34,536 bases of DNA from an uncultured Bacteroidales bacterium. Its GTDB lineage: Bacteria; Bacteroidota; Bacteroidia; Bacteroidales; FEN-979. The stretch lies in the NCBI GenBank assembly GCA_903845055.1, contig CAIMWF010000073.1, positions 1-34,536 of the forward strand, in the 5' to 3' direction. Position 1 is the first letter of the stretch, and each line of letters begins with the position of its first letter. The notes below the pieces were generated by a model. That model searched no databases. It was not told where the DNA came from and saw only the letters and a program-made list of their open reading frames with translations. This document shows, piece after piece, positions 903-34,536 of the stretch. The translations under genes were made by a program, and so were the position numbers.

Positions 903-934
903 TCGCTACCTCGCTACCTCGCTACCTCGCTACC
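903..934 (-). repeat. Tandem array, four exact 8-bp TAGCGAGG units
   Basis: On the minus strand the unit TAGCGAGG is repeated with period 8, followed by a degraded unit reading AGCGAAATAGTGAAA toward 897. It begins 4 nt after the guaA stop codon (939-941) and reads in the same direction as guaA. The same unit occurs at 20487-20518 and 31801-31848. It is not self-complementary, so it is not a hairpin terminator. Confidence 0.9.
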
Positions 935-938
935 TGTT

Positions 939-20387: not shown

Positions 20388-20411
20388 TTCGCAAATTCAG
20401 GTTAATATTCA

Positions 20412-20467
20412 GGCAATAGGCAATAGGCAATAGGCAGTGGGCAATAGGCAATAGGCAATAGGAATCA
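20412..20467 (+). repeat. Heptamer array, GGCAATA x8 (two units degenerate)
   Basis: Eight consecutive 7-bp units: three GGCAATA, one GGCAGTG, three GGCAATA and one GGAATCA. It lies between the aguB stop and the aguA start, in the orientation opposite to the genes. Shorter arrays of the same unit are at 28179-28206 and, inverted, at 31883-31910. Confidence 0.92.
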
Positions 20468-20486
20468 GGTCATATTAGCAGTTTTT

Positions 20487-20518
20487 ATTTTCGCTACCTC
20501 GCTACCCCACTACCTCGC
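20487..20518 (-). repeat. Octamer array GCGAGGTA overlapping the 3' end of aguB
   Basis: On the minus strand four 8-bp units read GCGAGGTA, GTGGGGTA, GCGAGGTA and GCGAAAAT. The first two supply the last residues of AguB and the start of the third provides part of the run containing its stop codon (20502-20504). This is the same unit as at 903-934 and 31801-31848, and again reads in the direction of the preceding gene. Confidence 0.88.
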
Positions 20519-21398
20519 TTTTACTTTTATCGATGTATCTTTCCCGCACCGGCCCGTAACTGTCGATCCTGCGGTCGCGCAAAAAGGGCCAGTGCACGCG
20601 GATTGCCTCAGTCCGGGAGCAATCGAGTTCATGTACATGGATCACTTCTGAATCGTGCGGCGCCTTGTACAGCAACTCGCCGAAAGGGCCGGCAACAAAG
20701 GAGCCTCCCCAGAAATTCATCTCTCCCTCTTTCCCGGTGCGGTTGACTGAAACAACAAACACGCCGTTGGCGACGGCATGCCCGCGCTGGATGATCTGCC
20801 AGGCATCATACTGCTCGCGGTTTAAGGCTTCCGGCTGTGAGGAGGCCCACCCGATGGCAGTGGGGTAAAAGATGACCTGGGCACCCATGAGGCTGGTGAT
20901 ACGGGCAGCTTCGGGATACCACTGGTCCCAGCAGATGAGGGTCCCTATACGGCCGTATTTTGTGTCGAATACCTTGTAGCCGCCGTCGCCGGGTGCAAAA
21001 TAGAATTTTTCATAATACCCGGGATCATCGGGAATGTGATGCTTTCGGTAAATGCCCATCAAAGAACCGTCGGCATCGAAAACGGCCACGGTGTTGTGAT
21101 AAACCCCTTCGGCCCGTTTTTCAAACAGGGAGGCAATGATCACCACATCAAGTTCACGCGCCAGTTTGCCGAAGGTTTCCGTTACCGGGCCCGGGATGGC
21201 ATCGGCCAGCAAAAAATTATCATAATTTTCCTCCCAGCAGAAGTAGGTGGTGGAAAAGAGCTCCTGCAGGCAGATGACCTTTGCGCCCATGGCGGCGGCT
21301 TCACGTACGTTTTTTTTGGCCTTTCCGAGGTTGGATGCCTTTTCCGGGCAGCAGGTCATCTGGATCATGCCTGCCTTGATTGTTTTTGCGATCATCAT
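20502..21398 (-). CDS. aguB: N-carbamoylputrescine amidase (nitrilase superfamily)
   Basis: Releases putrescine, CO2 and ammonia from N-carbamoylputrescine, the step after AguA, whose gene follows. 298 residues. The nitrilase-superfamily triad is complete: E46 in CLQELF, K119 in YRKHHIPD and C156 in LICWDQWYPEAAR. The phrases FYFAPGDGG, YPTAIGWA and the FWGGSFVAGPFGELL segment fit the N-carbamoylputrescine amidase branch rather than beta-ureidopropionase. The adjacent agmatine deiminase strongly supports this choice. The last residues, KSEVVG, are encoded by a TAGCGAGG-type repeat array that also carries the stop codon, so the natural C-terminus was probably altered by the array. The arginine decarboxylase that would supply agmatine is not in the window. 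Confidence 0.95.
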   Translation of the reverse strand: MMIAKTIKAGMIQMTCCPEKASNLGKAKKNVREAAAMGAKVICLQELFSTTYFCWEENYDNFLLADAIPGPVTETFGKLARELDVVIIASLFEKRAEGVYHNTVAVFDADGSLMGIYRKHHIPDDPGYYEKFYFAPGDGGYKVFDTKYGRIGTLICWDQWYPEAARITSLMGAQVIFYPTAIGWASSQPEALNREQYDAWQIIQRGHAVANGVFVVSVNRTGKEGEMNFWGGSFVAGPFGELLYKAPHDSEVIHVHELDCSRTEAIRVHWPFLRDRRIDSYGPVRERYIDKSKSEVVG

Positions 21399-28178: not shown

Positions 28179-28206
28179 GGAATCAGGCAATAGGCAACAG
28201 GCAATA
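28179..28206 (+). repeat. Heptamer array GGAATCA-GGCAATA-GGCAACA-GGCAATA
   Basis: Four 7-bp units in the ribD leader, starting 14 nt upstream of the ribD ATG and opposite in orientation to ribD. In that reading direction the array contains no stop codon, which creates the false N-terminal extension of ribD. Confidence 0.85.
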
Positions 28207-28223
28207 TCACACCAAAATCATTT

Positions 28224-28263
28224 CCACATCCTCAAATTTTCAAATCCTCAAATCCACAAATTG
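28224..28263 (+). repeat. Octamer array, TCAAATCC family
   Basis: Five 8-bp units: CCACATCC, TCAAATTT, TCAAATCC, TCAAATCC, ACAAATTG. It lies in the ribD leader between the riboswitch terminator and the start codon. No second copy of this family is seen in the window. Confidence 0.7.
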
Positions 28264-28268
28264 CTTTT

Positions 28269-28304
28269 ATTCGAATATTCCTGCATTCCAATATTCAATT
28301 ATTC
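28269..28304 (+). repeat. Octamer array, ATTC at 8-bp intervals
   Basis: ATTC recurs at 28269, 28277, 28285, 28293 and 28301 with degenerate filling bases. It abuts the U-tract of the riboswitch terminator. It resembles the period-7 ATTCRAY arrays at 22425 and 33234 but with one more base per unit. Confidence 0.65.
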
Positions 28305-28340: not shown

Positions 28341-28380
28341 CAATCCTATTTAACGTGATAAATGGTCAGATTAAATAAGT

Positions 28381-28521
28381 TTCTTCTTTCATCCAGACTT
28401 TACTGTCGGTGCCGTAATTTCAACGGCTCGGTTCCCTGTAAACAGGCGGTCCGGGGATCGCCGTTCGTCAGGAAGTCGCGGACTTTACCGCCGGTCGGGA
28501 ATTTCACCCTGCCCTGAAGAA
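28381..28521 (-). promoter_or_regulatory. FMN riboswitch (RFN element)
   Basis: An aptamer that binds flavin mononucleotide and turns off the riboflavin operon. On the minus strand the conserved blocks appear in order: outer stem TTCTTC (28521-28516), then GGGCAGGGTGAAATTCCC, ACCGGCGGTAAAG, the CCGCGAC segment, a variable arm, GCACCGACAGTAAAGTCTGG, ATGAAAGAAG, and the closing GAAGAA (28386-28381). These blocks match the RFN consensus closely. A terminator follows. CAGGGC inside the aptamer (28516-28511) is complementary to GCCCTG in the 5' arm of the terminator (28339-28334), so it could act as an antiterminator when FMN is absent; that pairing is my inference. Confidence 0.96.
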
Positions 28522-28564
28522 CCAAATTCTATGTGTATGAACAAGTGATCATCAATTCAGACTG

Positions 28565-31800: not shown

Positions 31801-31848
31801 TAGCGAGGTAGCGAGGTAGCGAGGTAGCGAGGTAGCGAAATAGCGAAA
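31801..31848 (+). repeat. Octamer array, TAGCGAGG x4 plus TAGCGAAA x2
   Basis: Six consecutive 8-bp units, four exact, beginning 7 nt after the SDR stop codon and reading in the same direction as that gene. Same unit as at 903-934 and 20487-20518. The array tail changes to TAGCGAAA, as it also does in the other two copies. Confidence 0.93.
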
Positions 31849-31882
31849 AAAAATGAAAAAGCAGAAACGGGTTGGAGTTGTT

Positions 31883-31910
31883 TATTGCCTATTGCCTGAT
31901 GCCTACTGCC
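31883..31910 (-). repeat. Heptamer array, GGCAATA family, at the hydF stop codon
   Basis: On the minus strand four 7-bp units read GGCAGTA, GGCATCA, GGCAATA, GGCAATA. The TAG stop of hydF (31912-31910) merges into the first unit. The array lies 34 nt from the TAGCGAGG array that follows the convergent SDR gene. Confidence 0.88.
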
Positions 31911-33139
31911 TATAAATAATCTTCGACCCCTTCGGAGCCCCCGGTGAACGGCGCGATGGCGCGGTTGTAAATGCCATGGATGTAGGCAATGGCCATGCCG
32001 TAGTTGGTGACGGGGATACCGGCGTCGATGGCCGGTTTCAGGCGGCTCTGCAGTTGTTTCCGGGTGATCATGCAGCCGCCGCACTGGATCACCATCGCGT
32101 AATCGGTGATGGGCCGCGGGATGGGGCTCAACCCGGCAACCACTTCGAATTCAAGCTTTTTTCCTGAAAAACTGGTCAGCCACCGGGGGATCTTGACCCG
32201 GCCGATGTCGTCGCACGACACATGGTGTGTGCACGACTCCAGGATCAGCACCCGGTCGCCGTCGCCGAGCTTCGACAGGTGCGGGGTTCCCTTCATATAG
32301 CTCGCGAAATCGCCCTTCTGCCTCGCCAGTACGATGCTGAAGCTGGTCAGGGGTATCTCTTTCGGGATGGAGGCATCGGCCTTCGGGAAGACCTGGCTGT
32401 CGGTGACCACGAGCACGGGTTTCGGGTTCATCTTCCGCAAAAAGGCATCCACCTCCCGCTCCTTGCAAACCACGGCAATCCCGTCGTGGTCGAGCACGTC
32501 GCGGATCACCTGCACCTGCGGCAGGATCATCCTCCCCTCGGGTGCCTCGATGTCAATGGGGGTGATCAGCAATACCATGTCGCCATAGGAGATCAGGTCG
32601 CCCACGAGGGTCTGCTTCCGGAAGGCCGTTTCGGGGATCGTCTCCCGGATCAGGCTGACCAGCGCTTCGAGGTTGCTGGGAAGCAGCGCGCTGAAACCGA
32701 TGACCGGCACATTGTATTTTTCGGCGATCACGCCTGACAATTCCGGGCGAATCTCCTCCTCATCCGATTTGTTGTGGATGACCATGCAGGGCAGGTCATT
32801 GGCCCTGAAATCGCGCAGCAGGTTCTTTTCCGGCTCGTCAAACTGGTTGCCGGCGATCACCAGGATAGCCATGTCGATGATCTTCAGCACCTCCAGCGTC
32901 TTTCCAACCCGTTTCATCCCCAGCTCGCCGCTGTCGTCAATGCCGGCGGTGTCGATCATCACCACCGGGCCGATCCCGCCGATCTCGATCGACTTTTTCA
33001 CCGGGTCGGTGGTCGTGCCCGCCGTCTCCGACACGATGGCGATCTCCTGCCCGGTCAGAACGTTGATGAGGGAGCTCTTCCCGTTGTTACGCCTGCCGAA
33101 GATGCCGATGTGGGGTTTGGTGTCGCGGGAAGAGTTCAT
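31910..33139 (-). CDS. hydF: [FeFe]-hydrogenase H-cluster maturation GTPase
   Basis: Scaffold on which HydE and HydG products assemble the di-iron subcluster before transfer to [FeFe]-hydrogenase. 409 residues. The GTPase domain has the P-loop GRRNNGKSS (15-23), TAGTTTDP (39-46), DTAG (63-66) and NKSD (123-126). The dimerisation domain follows to about 280. The cluster-binding domain has C303-T-H305 in ESCTHHVSCDD and C353/C356 in IQCGGCMITR, the CxH...CxxC ligand set of HydF. GDGDRVLILESCTHH and the RPITDYAM region are diagnostic of this family, ruling out EngA-type GTPases. This implies anaerobic hydrogen metabolism. HydE, HydG and a hydrogenase are not in the window. A TAnnTTTG box lies upstream, and the stop codon is contributed by a heptamer repeat. 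Confidence 0.97.
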   Translation of the reverse strand: MNSSRDTKPHIGIFGRRNNGKSSLINVLTGQEIAIVSETAGTTTDPVKKSIEIGGIGPVVMIDTAGIDDSGELGMKRVGKTLEVLKIIDMAILVIAGNQFDEPEKNLLRDFRANDLPCMVIHNKSDEEEIRPELSGVIAEKYNVPVIGFSALLPSNLEALVSLIRETIPETAFRKQTLVGDLISYGDMVLLITPIDIEAPEGRMILPQVQVIRDVLDHDGIAVVCKEREVDAFLRKMNPKPVLVVTDSQVFPKADASIPKEIPLTSFSIVLARQKGDFASYMKGTPHLSKLGDGDRVLILESCTHHVSCDDIGRVKIPRWLTSFSGKKLEFEVVAGLSPIPRPITDYAMVIQCGGCMITRKQLQSRLKPAIDAGIPVTNYGMAIAYIHGIYNRAIAPFTGGSEGVEDYL

Positions 33140-33156: not shown

Positions 33157-33175
33157 AATTAAAAATTAAAAATTA
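33157..33175 (+). repeat. AATTAAA heptamer repeat in the hydF leader
   Basis: Two units of AATTAAA and a partial third, period 7, 18 nt upstream of the hydF start. A related AATTAAAAATTAC stretch occurs at about 10486-10498 between two genes of the exported cluster. Confidence 0.6.
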
Positions 33176-33233: not shown

Positions 33234-33275
33234 GTTCGACATTCGATATCCGACATTCGATATTCGAAATTCAAC
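33234..33275 (+). repeat. Heptamer array, ATTCRAY family
   Basis: Six 7-bp units: GTTCGAC, ATTCGAT, ATCCGAC, ATTCGAT, ATTCGAA, ATTCAAC. It lies in the intergenic region between the ABC-F gene and hydF, downstream of the predicted hydF promoter box, so it would be transcribed as leader. Same family as 22425-22466. Confidence 0.85.
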
Positions 33276-33315: not shown

Positions 33316-34536
33316 TCAGCTCTTCCGCTCCAGCTCTTTCAGGTTCTCGAGTTTTTTCTTCTGCAGGAAGCTGTGGATGTCGCCGAGATGCTCCTTTACC
33401 CTCCGGTTTCCGAATTCAAACACCTTGTTGACCAGCCCGTCGAGAAAATCGCGGTCGTGCGAAACGAGGATCATGGTGCCGTCGTAATCCTGCAGGGCGC
33501 TCTTCAGGATATCCTTGGTCTTCAGGTCGAGGTGGTTGGTGGGTTCGTCGAGGATGAGCAGGTTCACCGGCTCGAGCAGCAGCTTGATCATGGCCAGCCG
33601 TGTACGCTCCCCGCCCGACAGAACCTTCACCTTGTTGGAGGATAGGTCGCCGCCGAACATGAAGGCGCCCAGGATGTCGCGGATCTTCGCGCGGATGTCG
33701 CCCCTGGCGGCATCATCGATGGTCTGGAACACGGTGATCTCCTCGTCGAGCATCGAGGCCTGGTTCTGCGCGAAATAGCCGATCATGATGTTGTGGCCCA
33801 GCGTCAGGGTGCCGGTATAGCCCTTTTCGCCCATGATGGCGCGCACCAGGGTGGATTTCCCCTCCCCGTTCTTGCCGACGAAGGCCACCCGTTCGCCACG
33901 CTCGATGCTCAGGGATACGTCGCCGAATACCTGGTGGTCGCCATAACTTTTCGACAGCCCGCCCAGGATCAGCGGGTAGCTGCCCGAACGGGGCGATGGA
34001 GGGAACCTGAGCCGCAGGGCCGAGGTATCCTCCTCGTCGATCTCAACCAGCTCCAGTTTCTCCAGCATCTTCACCCGCGACTGCACCTGCAGGGTCTTGC
34101 TGTAGGTACCCTTGAACCGTTCTATGAACTCCTGCGTTTCGGCGATTATCTTCAGCTGCTCGTCAAATTTCTTCTGCTGCTGCTGGCGCCGCTCGAGCCG
34201 GAGCTGCTGGTAAGCAGTATAGTTCACCTTGTAATCGTAAATCCTCCCCATGGTCACCTCGATGGTGCGGGTGGTGATGTTGTCGACGAAGGCCCGGTCG
34301 TGCGAGATCACGATGACCGCCCTGGCGCTGCTGATAAGGAACTCCTCGAGCCACTGCACCGATTCGATGTCCATATGGTTGGTCGGCTCGTCGAGCAGGA
34401 TGAGGTCGGGTTTCTGCAGCAGGATCTTGGCAAGCTCGATGCGCATGCGCCAGCCCCCGCTGAACTCGCCCGTGGGCCGCGTGAAATCGCTCCTGAGGAA
34501 GCCAAGCCCCATCAGTATCTTCTCGATCTCCGCGTC
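33316..34536 (-). CDS. ABC-F family ATPase, N-terminus cut by window edge
   Basis: Soluble protein with two fused ABC domains and no membrane part; members act on ribosomes in translation or antibiotic protection. The frame stays open to base 34536 (GAC GCG GAG ... reading D-A-E-I-E-K-I-L before an internal Met at 34512), so the listed 406 residues are the C-terminal two thirds. Seen first is the end of domain 1: FSGGWRMRIELAKILL (signature), LILLDEPTNHMD (Walker B). A linker of charged helices follows (QQLRLERRQQQQKKFDEQL and after), the P-site tRNA interaction motif region of ABC-F proteins. Domain 2 has Walker A GKNGEGKST, LSGGERTRLAM, LLILDEPTNHLD and the ISHDR/VSHDRDFL switch. A short basic tail ends the protein. 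It most resembles the Uup/YheS-like branch; the exact subfamily cannot be set from this part. Confidence 0.95.
   Translation of the reverse strand, partial: DAEIEKILMGLGFLRSDFTRPTGEFSGGWRMRIELAKILLQKPDLILLDEPTNHMDIESVQWLEEFLISSARAVIVISHDRAFVDNITTRTIEVTMGRIYDYKVNYTAYQQLRLERRQQQQKKFDEQLKIIAETQEFIERFKGTYSKTLQVQSRVKMLEKLELVEIDEEDTSALRLRFPPSPRSGSYPLILGGLSKSYGDHQVFGDVSLSIERGERVAFVGKNGEGKSTLVRAIMGEKGYTGTLTLGHNIMIGYFAQNQASMLDEEITVFQTIDDAARGDIRAKIRDILGAFMFGGDLSSNKVKVLSGGERTRLAMIKLLLEPVNLLILDEPTNHLDLKTKDILKSALQDYDGTMILVSHDRDFLDGLVNKVFEFGNRRVKEHLGDIHSFLQKKKLENLKELERKS

Follow-up and report, generated by a model that had tools for sequence, protein, structure and literature searches.

The short tandem arrays that lie between the genes of the bacterial genome studied here hold fixed positions and orientations relative to gene ends, stand in register with stop codons, follow one another in a fixed order and have been replaced wholesale at many sites in a pair of sister genomes. 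We propose, with a probability that we put at roughly 0.6, that the arrays are modules of stop-anchored cassettes which are swapped among gene ends by ectopic copying and filtered by stop codons. Such a cassette would consist of several short tandem arrays in series, each with a unit of 7 or 8 nt. Read in the direction of the gene, the stop codon would be followed by a proximal array (often purine rich; here TAGCGAGG grading to TAGCGAAA and TGGCGAAA), then by a core that is A/T rich or a hairpin, and finally by a distal array (TATTGCC). The cassettes would spread and replace one another within a genome by ectopic copying, perhaps by gene conversion or by template switching at shared repeat words, and their copy number would afterwards drift through slippage. 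The copying step itself is one that we infer rather than see directly. An array that enters the 3′ end of a gene would presumably survive best in the orientation that gives a stop codon in every frame; if so, the octamer array would be fixed in the sense orientation at the stop, and the polarity of the two-array sites described below would follow.

Arrays in the Window

The window, that is, the whole stretch of DNA that was analyzed, is contig CAIMWF010000073.1 from position 1 to 34,536 (34,536 nt), and the genome to which it belongs is GCA_903845055.1 (G000 where a label is needed). We use O for the octamer family of TAGCGAGG and H for the heptamer family of GGCAATA, which reads TATTGCC on the opposite strand. 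Gene calls and gene ends come from our own simple ORF scorer, not from a standard annotator, and misassembly of arrays is possible, as the assemblies are drafts. Gene names that go beyond the Pfam domains found are provisional.

Table 1. Repeat arrays and associated features of the window
Feature	Positions	Strand	Basis or location
H array, GGCAATA x7.4 (called as AGGCAAT)	20411-20462	+	Tandem Repeats Finder
A/T-rich spacer between first-site arrays	20463-20488		letters
O array x3.6 (TCGCTACC on plus, TAGCGAGG on minus)	20491-20519	-	Tandem Repeats Finder
Amidase C-terminal codons S-E-V-V-G and TAG stop (20502-20504), written by O octamers	20502-20519	-	letters and translation end
O array, TAGCGAGG x5.8, TAGCGAAA units at end	31801-31846	+	Tandem Repeats Finder
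A-rich spacer between second-site arrays	31847-31882		letters
H array, TATTGCC x4.4 (GGCAATA on minus)	31883-31913	-	Tandem Repeats Finder
O array x4.1, without H partner	903-935	-	Tandem Repeats Finder
H-like array without O, minus sense TATTGCC TGTTGCC TATTGCC	28185-28206	+	upstream of ribD
Purine-rich TTTGAGGA-type and TTGGAATA-type arrays	28220-28304	-	tandem repeats
TGTCGAA-type 7-nt array	33235-33272	-	44 nt past stop of gene 33316-34512
A/T 7-nt array	33157-33175		tandem repeats

The two sites at which O and H arrays face each other present the same succession in gene sense: a stop codon, an O array ending in TAGCGAAA, an A/T-rich spacer and then H read as TATTGCC (table 1). At the first site, the O array, which spans 20489-20520 when its mismatched ends are included and has TAGCGAAA as its last unit, overlaps the 3′ end of an amidase (CN_hydrolase) gene; the H array appears as TATTGCC when read along the two flanking genes, both on the minus strand, and lies 24 nt ahead of the start codon of a gene of the agmatine deiminase type (PAD_porph). 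At the second site, the O array begins 7 nt past the stop of a short-chain dehydrogenase (SDR) gene, and the TAG stop (31910-31912) of the convergent hydF gene (31910-33139; HydF domains found) sits in the degenerate H end unit TAGGCAG. The O array that has no H partner is directly 3′ of the GMP synthase stop (TAA AACAGG TAGCGAGG...). With up to three mismatches allowed, the window contains 15 occurrences of GGCAATAGGCAATA where 2.2 are expected, a number that none of 100 shuffles reaches, and TAGCGAGGTAGCGAGG occurs 10 times against 0.08 expected. This excess over shuffles, together with the calls of Tandem Repeats Finder, bears out the description in an earlier note of facing GGCAATA and TAGCGAGG arrays at both sites. 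The octamer array does end in TAGCGAAA beside an A/T-rich spacer in both copies, as that note had remarked, and this ending is common genome-wide, the array-ending type AGCGAGGTAGCGAAA being found at 59 places. The spacer lengths that it gave, 20 and 34 nt, should read 26-28 and 36 nt, and the two copies are mirror images in their layout, not in the sequence of their spacers.

The H-like array upstream of ribD and the purine-rich arrays next to it make up a degenerate copy of the composite cassette described below, and match that of the relative G011 at 71% over 87 nt. An FMN riboswitch, the sole match to Rfam at gathering thresholds within the window, precedes ribD at 28377-28525 (minus strand). 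The degenerate cassette (TTTGAGGA arrays, then TATTGCC) lies between the terminator-like hairpin of this riboswitch and the ribD start, and so occupies a 5′ leader instead of the end of a gene.

A Dictionary of Short Units in Fixed Order

Exact arrays of at least two copies were counted in a sample of 520 kb, consisting of six contigs that are whole or nearly so (the first 49 kb in the case of C61) and that were not a random draw, one or more O or H places having been located beforehand on each; a 717-kb sequence set was chosen around O and H. In the whole-contig sample, there are 70 arrays of period 7 in 51 kb of intergenic DNA against 22 in 469 kb of coding DNA, and 26 of period 8 against 9, and for periods 5, 6 and 9-12 no intergenic enrichment was found. 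An enrichment of period 9 was considered on the strength of the array-centred sample (9 intergenic arrays in 73 kb vs 13 coding arrays in 555 kb) and discarded on that of the whole contigs (1 vs 10). Nine-nucleotide arrays of the GCATTGTCT type follow H arrays at L100 and L117 (G014), L118 (G005) and C14:18666 (G000), and are rare relative to periods 7 and 8. An array with a 7- or 8-nt unit is carried by 54 of the 232 intergenic regions of at least 40 nt. Periods 7 and 8 are likewise in excess in four relatives (one of another genus), which have units of their own, in stretches partly chosen for known arrays.

That these two periods stand out, and that the 96 intergenic arrays comprise 37 units, many of which occur singly, is what local replication slippage would produce if it acted alone: the arrays would have grown in place from chance duplications, with a step of 7-8 nt set by the footprint of the polymerase. 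Slippage with a preference for 7 nt is an older proposal, as reported in PMC4679880 and PMC4692102. However, six units make up 56 of the 96 arrays, non-repeat cores are common to several loci, and the O units change from GG to AA with a fixed polarity (see below). Slippage as the whole explanation seems to us improbable.

The families follow a set order in gene sense: TAGCGAGG, TAGCGAAA and TGGCGAAA come first, followed by AAATCGT, TTTTTAA or TATTGCC; TTTGAGGA or TGGTAAAA precedes TATTGCC, and TGACGAG precedes AAATCGT. When the first sense occurrence of each family is scored in codirectional regions (371 of 544) and antisense arrays are left out, 61 ordered pairs and no reversed ones are found in 37 regions, and 22 of these regions go beyond O variants alone. 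The surroundings of H are similarly one-sided, since another exact array lies within 150 nt of intergenic sequence on the 3′ side of the GGCAATA strand at 24 of 36 loci and on its 5′ side at only one; in this respect the earlier note was right to hold that pairing and polarity are not a matter of chance slippage. The array-poor side is the shorter one (median 50 vs 80 nt). Among H sides of at least 40 nt, an array is present on 23 of 33 fixed sides and on 1 of 21 opposite sides, and random intergenic pieces of 100 nt hold an exact array in 63 of 655 cases.

GC-rich palindromes stand beside some H arrays, and none was noticed in the O-H pairs. Seven H loci of G000 (on C3, C32, C84, C103, C120, C140 and C148) share such a palindrome together with a ATCAAAAAGTAATT-like spacer before a TAATTTT array, and a similar layout, with a terminator-like hairpin, is seen at the congeneric locus L097. 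A profile of this hairpin core (nhmmer) gave strong matches only to its 7 seeds; the next matches (E 4e-4 and weaker) lie mostly in the TAATTTTTAA part, with a few at E 0.006-0.09 in the hairpin part. The core thus defines a small subclass.

O and H as Separate Families

O and H are separate families. In their own genome, the H pattern (GGCAATAGGCAATA) was found at 45 places and the O pattern (TAGCGAGGTAGCGA) at 116, and the reversed controls at none. In the stretches analyzed, all 45 H places are included and fall into 36 clusters, and 115 of the 116 O places fall into 70 clusters, one of them inside a gene call. Among 61 genomes, our own and 60 from its genus, family and order, O is present in 19, H in 21 and both in only 6, a distribution that lends no support to a single O+H element; the reversed H control matches 1-3 times in six genomes, so genomes with a single H place may be there by chance. 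The paired pattern, with a gap of 10-40 nt, was positive in 1 of the 61, and a conserved O+H unit was rejected on this ground.

Within our own genome O and H share an intergenic region five times, always with the polarity reported in the earlier note, an agreement that has a probability of about 0.12 given the gene bias of each family. These five of the 36 H clusters compare with 1.6-2.4 expected (P 0.03-0.09). The suggestion of the earlier note was that the pair is one element copied as a unit in either orientation. The uniform polarity would agree with this, as would the O-type sequence found within 150 nt of 7 of the 36 H loci once degenerate units are allowed. On the other hand, exact units are unpaired in 65 of the 70 O and 31 of the 36 H clusters, the five O-H spacers look dissimilar by eye, and at the second site the relative G005 carries an array of the TATTGCC type but no O. 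We regard a single O+H element as very improbable; what endures of the suggestion is that a composite cassette with a TATTGCC-type array is dispersed. The co-occurrence of O and H in one polarity arises because both families obey gene ends. Two opposite O arrays occur within one intergenic region at C163:9247-9295 and at C118:1254-1335 of G000, and those on C163 include the inverted repeat TAGCGAAA-A-TTTCGCTA.

Anchoring to Stop Codons

Sixty-six of the 70 O clusters lie between two called genes, three at an edge and one inside a gene call. In 53 of the 66, the array is in sense after the stop of a gene (41 codirectional, 12 convergent); the rest are nine codirectional cases in the other orientation and four divergent ones. 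The array starts by +12 nt from the stop in 46 of the 53, against 12.1 (SD 2.8) under uniform placement, and among 558 gene ends there are 46 with a sense O array starting this close and none with an antisense one. Stop codon and octamer share one register in 29 of the 46 (5.75 expected, P 1e-15). The array itself supplies the stop in 17 of these 29, in frames 0, 1 and 2 in 8, 6 and 3 cases, respectively, and in the remaining 12 a degenerate unit opens with the stop triplet; so closely is O tied to the stop codon that array and stop coincide in 17 of the 46. From the stop outward, the O units grade from TAGCGAGG to TAGCGAAA and TGGCGAAA, and this gradient from GG to AA has a fixed polarity. 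Thirty-three H loci have a called gene on either side, and 25 of them read TATTGCC when viewed in the direction of an upstream gene, with 14 codirectional loci in sense and five the other way, and 11 convergent loci to which both readings apply; their median distance from the upstream stop is 75 nt. More generally, 30 arrays touch gene ends in the whole-contig sample (371 ends): 20 have a stop codon in the sense orientation and 10 do not, 7 would have one if flipped, and 11 are in register with the stop.

The proposed filter does not cover everything. The O arrays that start past the stop, where they do not supply it, are likewise sense only (29 vs 0), which a pure stop-supply filter leaves unexplained and which makes a targeting step or a 3′-end function possible. 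The other orientation, seen in 9 of 50 codirectional O clusters and in 5 of 19 H clusters, also counts against the proposal, as does the lack of a sense stop codon in 10 of the 30 arrays at gene ends of the whole-contig sample.

A 3′-end function would be primary if the array chain were a selected signal of the mRNA 3′-UTR, serving transcription termination, RNA protection or as a fail-safe stop, with words that are either conserved or convergent. We consider this rather unlikely. The sense orientation of O past the stop, the fixed order of the families, the TAG that the O unit gives in every frame and the GC-rich palindrome between arrays at some H loci would all suit such a signal, whereas H in the sense orientation has no stop codon and the predicted folds of the 36 H compounds (mean z -0.44) do not surpass those of 73 control regions (-1.08). 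The fold z of the two window sites is -0.36 and -1.94, the latter matched by 5 of 200 shuffles. Pairing of O with H in the RNA was set aside as a candidate, as good a value being reached by 5 of 200 shuffles at one window site and by 70 of 200 at the other, with no group signal among the 36 H loci; the G-quadruplex was set aside too because, on inspection, the units hold GG only and not runs of at least three G.

Orthologous Sites in Relatives

The genus provides 19 genomes (our own and 18 congeneric relatives) including one pair at 96.8% identity, which allows filled, empty and swapped sites to be set against one another at single-base resolution. In a four-protein tree G000 groups with G005, and G006 stands beside G011. 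Between the amidase and agmatine-deiminase-type genes, TATTGCC is found in G008 and G011 and TAGTGAAA/TGGTGAAA in G014; the two genes overlap in G001 and G010 and are 4-28 nt apart in G017, G016, G005 and G003, and in several relatives the array again carries the stop codon. The earlier note had asked whether such sites are empty in relatives: O is missing here from all 18 (in two of which the next gene was not found) and six have no more than 28 nt between the genes, but others hold arrays of different type. A site at which O is present in none of 18 relatives and TATTGCC arrays in two does not favor a selected 3′-UTR signal. After the SDR gene, no O array was found in the 170 nt read in the 18 congeneric relatives (one contig ends there); G005, the nearest relative, has a TATTGCC-type array alone, and inspection by eye shows short arrays of other kinds in about nine more. 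An exact 7- or 8-nt array lies near the stop in 7 of 80 named amidase orthologues, which makes the feature uncommon at the amidase site outside the group. The entry SACF01000043.1 (L181), titled Alphaproteobacteria, has the same sequence after the amidase stop as contig C323 of G006, and its label looks wrong.

Replacement of Cassettes in Sister Genomes

In 281 kb of alignment, the genomes G006 and G011 share 96.8% identity. Among 138 orthologous intergenic regions of at least 20 nt, 13 contain exact 7- or 8-nt arrays in one or both genomes. A length change of more than 1 nt has occurred in 10 of these 13 against 8 of the 125 without arrays (P 2e-8), and identity has fallen below 85% in 7 of the 13 against 9 of the 125 (P 8e-5). 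The change starts between -35 and +14 nt from the stop codon in five codirectional cases. Against our proposal, 6 of the 13 array regions stay at least 85% identical, while the 9 non-array regions have also changed. The array regions are clustered, 7 of the 13 being on C323 of G006 (C81 and C33 of G011), and long stretches elsewhere are almost without arrays.

Nineteen regions were changed, and 15 of them (9 array, 6 non-array) were long enough for a comparison of segments. The G011 segments are better matched elsewhere in G011 than by the G006 orthologue in 6 of 9 array regions and 1 of 6 non-array regions, and for the G006 segments a locus of their own genome beats the G011 orthologue in 6 of 9 and 0 of 6, in a test that sets the best of many loci against one orthologue and uses sequence enriched in cassette loci. 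Changed segments that resemble other loci of the same genome more than their own orthologue speak against slippage, and wholesale replacement at most of the changed sites speaks against a selected 3′-UTR signal. We argue from these data for cassette exchange between gene ends over slippage in place.

The cassette at the amidase site of G011, used as a 103-nt query, has at least 44 matches in G011 and at least 47 in G006, many of them partial; the candidates scored were 40 of 70 in G011 and 40 of 85 in G006. The same query has 48 matches in G008, mostly to the TATTGCC part among the matches listed, 26 in our own genome, two of which among the matches listed span most of the query, 1 in G012 and 0 in G001. 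The composite cassette, which runs from purine-rich arrays through a GTGAAAATTTTTAATT-like core to a TATTGCC array, was recognized at 13 distinct places in G011 and G006.

Dispersed composite copies that share a core, and a palindrome in one subclass, might also be expected of a non-autonomous mobile element (MITE or REPIN) that is moved by a transposase and has the arrays as internal repeats. This strikes us as highly improbable: the copies vary in length and module content, the change begins close to the stop in the five codirectional cases mentioned above, and neither constant ends and terminal inverted repeats nor target-site duplications were seen by eye at the sister-genome breakpoints. 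REPIN palindromes have a GTAG or CGTC tag at one end, as described in PMC3733652. In our own genome, whose assembly is rated 95% complete, a search limited to the Y1 family found no Y1 (RAYT) transposase (PF01797; matches in 5 of 14 controls). No reverse transcriptase (PF00078; matches in 3 of 14 controls) was found in this draft assembly either. A reverse-transcriptase origin (retron, group II intron or telomerase-like) and a RAYT origin were set aside, the genes not being found in our own genome.

Discussion

A bolder form of the cassette proposal, which we hold to be possible although doubtful, is that the arrays are mobile transposase-free cassettes which home to the stop codon, travel by recombination between the 7- and 8-nt words of a dictionary specific to each genome, are ordered as if by a grammar, and rewrite the last codons and stops of genes. 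Since cassettes so understood would rewrite the last codons and the stop codons, related species would keep their genes and exchange the punctuation between them. Repeat traffic, if cassettes are exchanged between gene ends as we propose, remodels gene C-termini as well as intergenic spacers.

To our knowledge, there is no accepted account of how one heptamer unit spreads to many bacterial loci. In the titles and the opening parts of abstracts of the open-licence literature we found no description of ordered stop-anchored repeat cassettes. The arrays described here have the attributes of intergenic hepta- and octanucleotide repeats: units within the range of 5-11 nt repeated beyond chance, many intergenic loci and rarity in genes. 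In most of the genomes that were surveyed for long simple sequence repeats (units of 5-11 nt), these are most often heptamers (Mrazek 2007, via PMC4679880); the latter source describes them without the ordered chains, stop register and cassette exchange found here. The multicopy sequences of Geobacter metallireducens (PMC2700814) resemble ours in that their families include elements built from four or five units of 7 or 8 nt in tandem; several of these are reported as missing from the related G. sulfurreducens. They differ in being proposed as regulator sites or regulatory RNAs, and anchoring to stops is not part of their description in the sections consulted. The tandem repeats of Borgs (PMC9879509) are, like ours, fast evolving, intergenic or at the ends of ORFs, and unlike between close relatives. 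However, their example units are of 18-21 nt, with perfect copies and independent origins, and the portions of that report consulted describe no shared dictionary or cassette order of the kind seen here.

The closest known systems are the repeats of GGGNATC (PMC4692102) and TAACTGA (PMC4679880). The GGGNATC heptamers of Xanthomonas and Nostoc lie on the sense strand near stop codons (Rehm 2015). They differ from our arrays in their G-tracts, evidence of quadruplexes and preference for four units, whereas our units have GG only, and 83% of their sites are reported as kept between two Xanthomonas species, whereas here the array regions mostly differ in the sister genome. The TAACTGA heptamers are intergenic repeats of the Beggiatoaceae, some Cyanobacteria and five Bacteroidetes (MacGregor 2015); according to that paper, they have no evident mechanism of transfer. 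As with our arrays, they are described as 7-nt direct repeats at many intergenic sites, with forward stops in three frames; sets of them overlap the stop codon of the upstream gene, and close relatives have shorter spacers without obvious repeats. They differ in consisting of one unit, which in the main genome described lies mostly immediately before start codons, whereas our arrays draw on several 7- and 8-nt units, keep a fixed order after the stop, belong to larger cassettes and are replaced between sister genomes.
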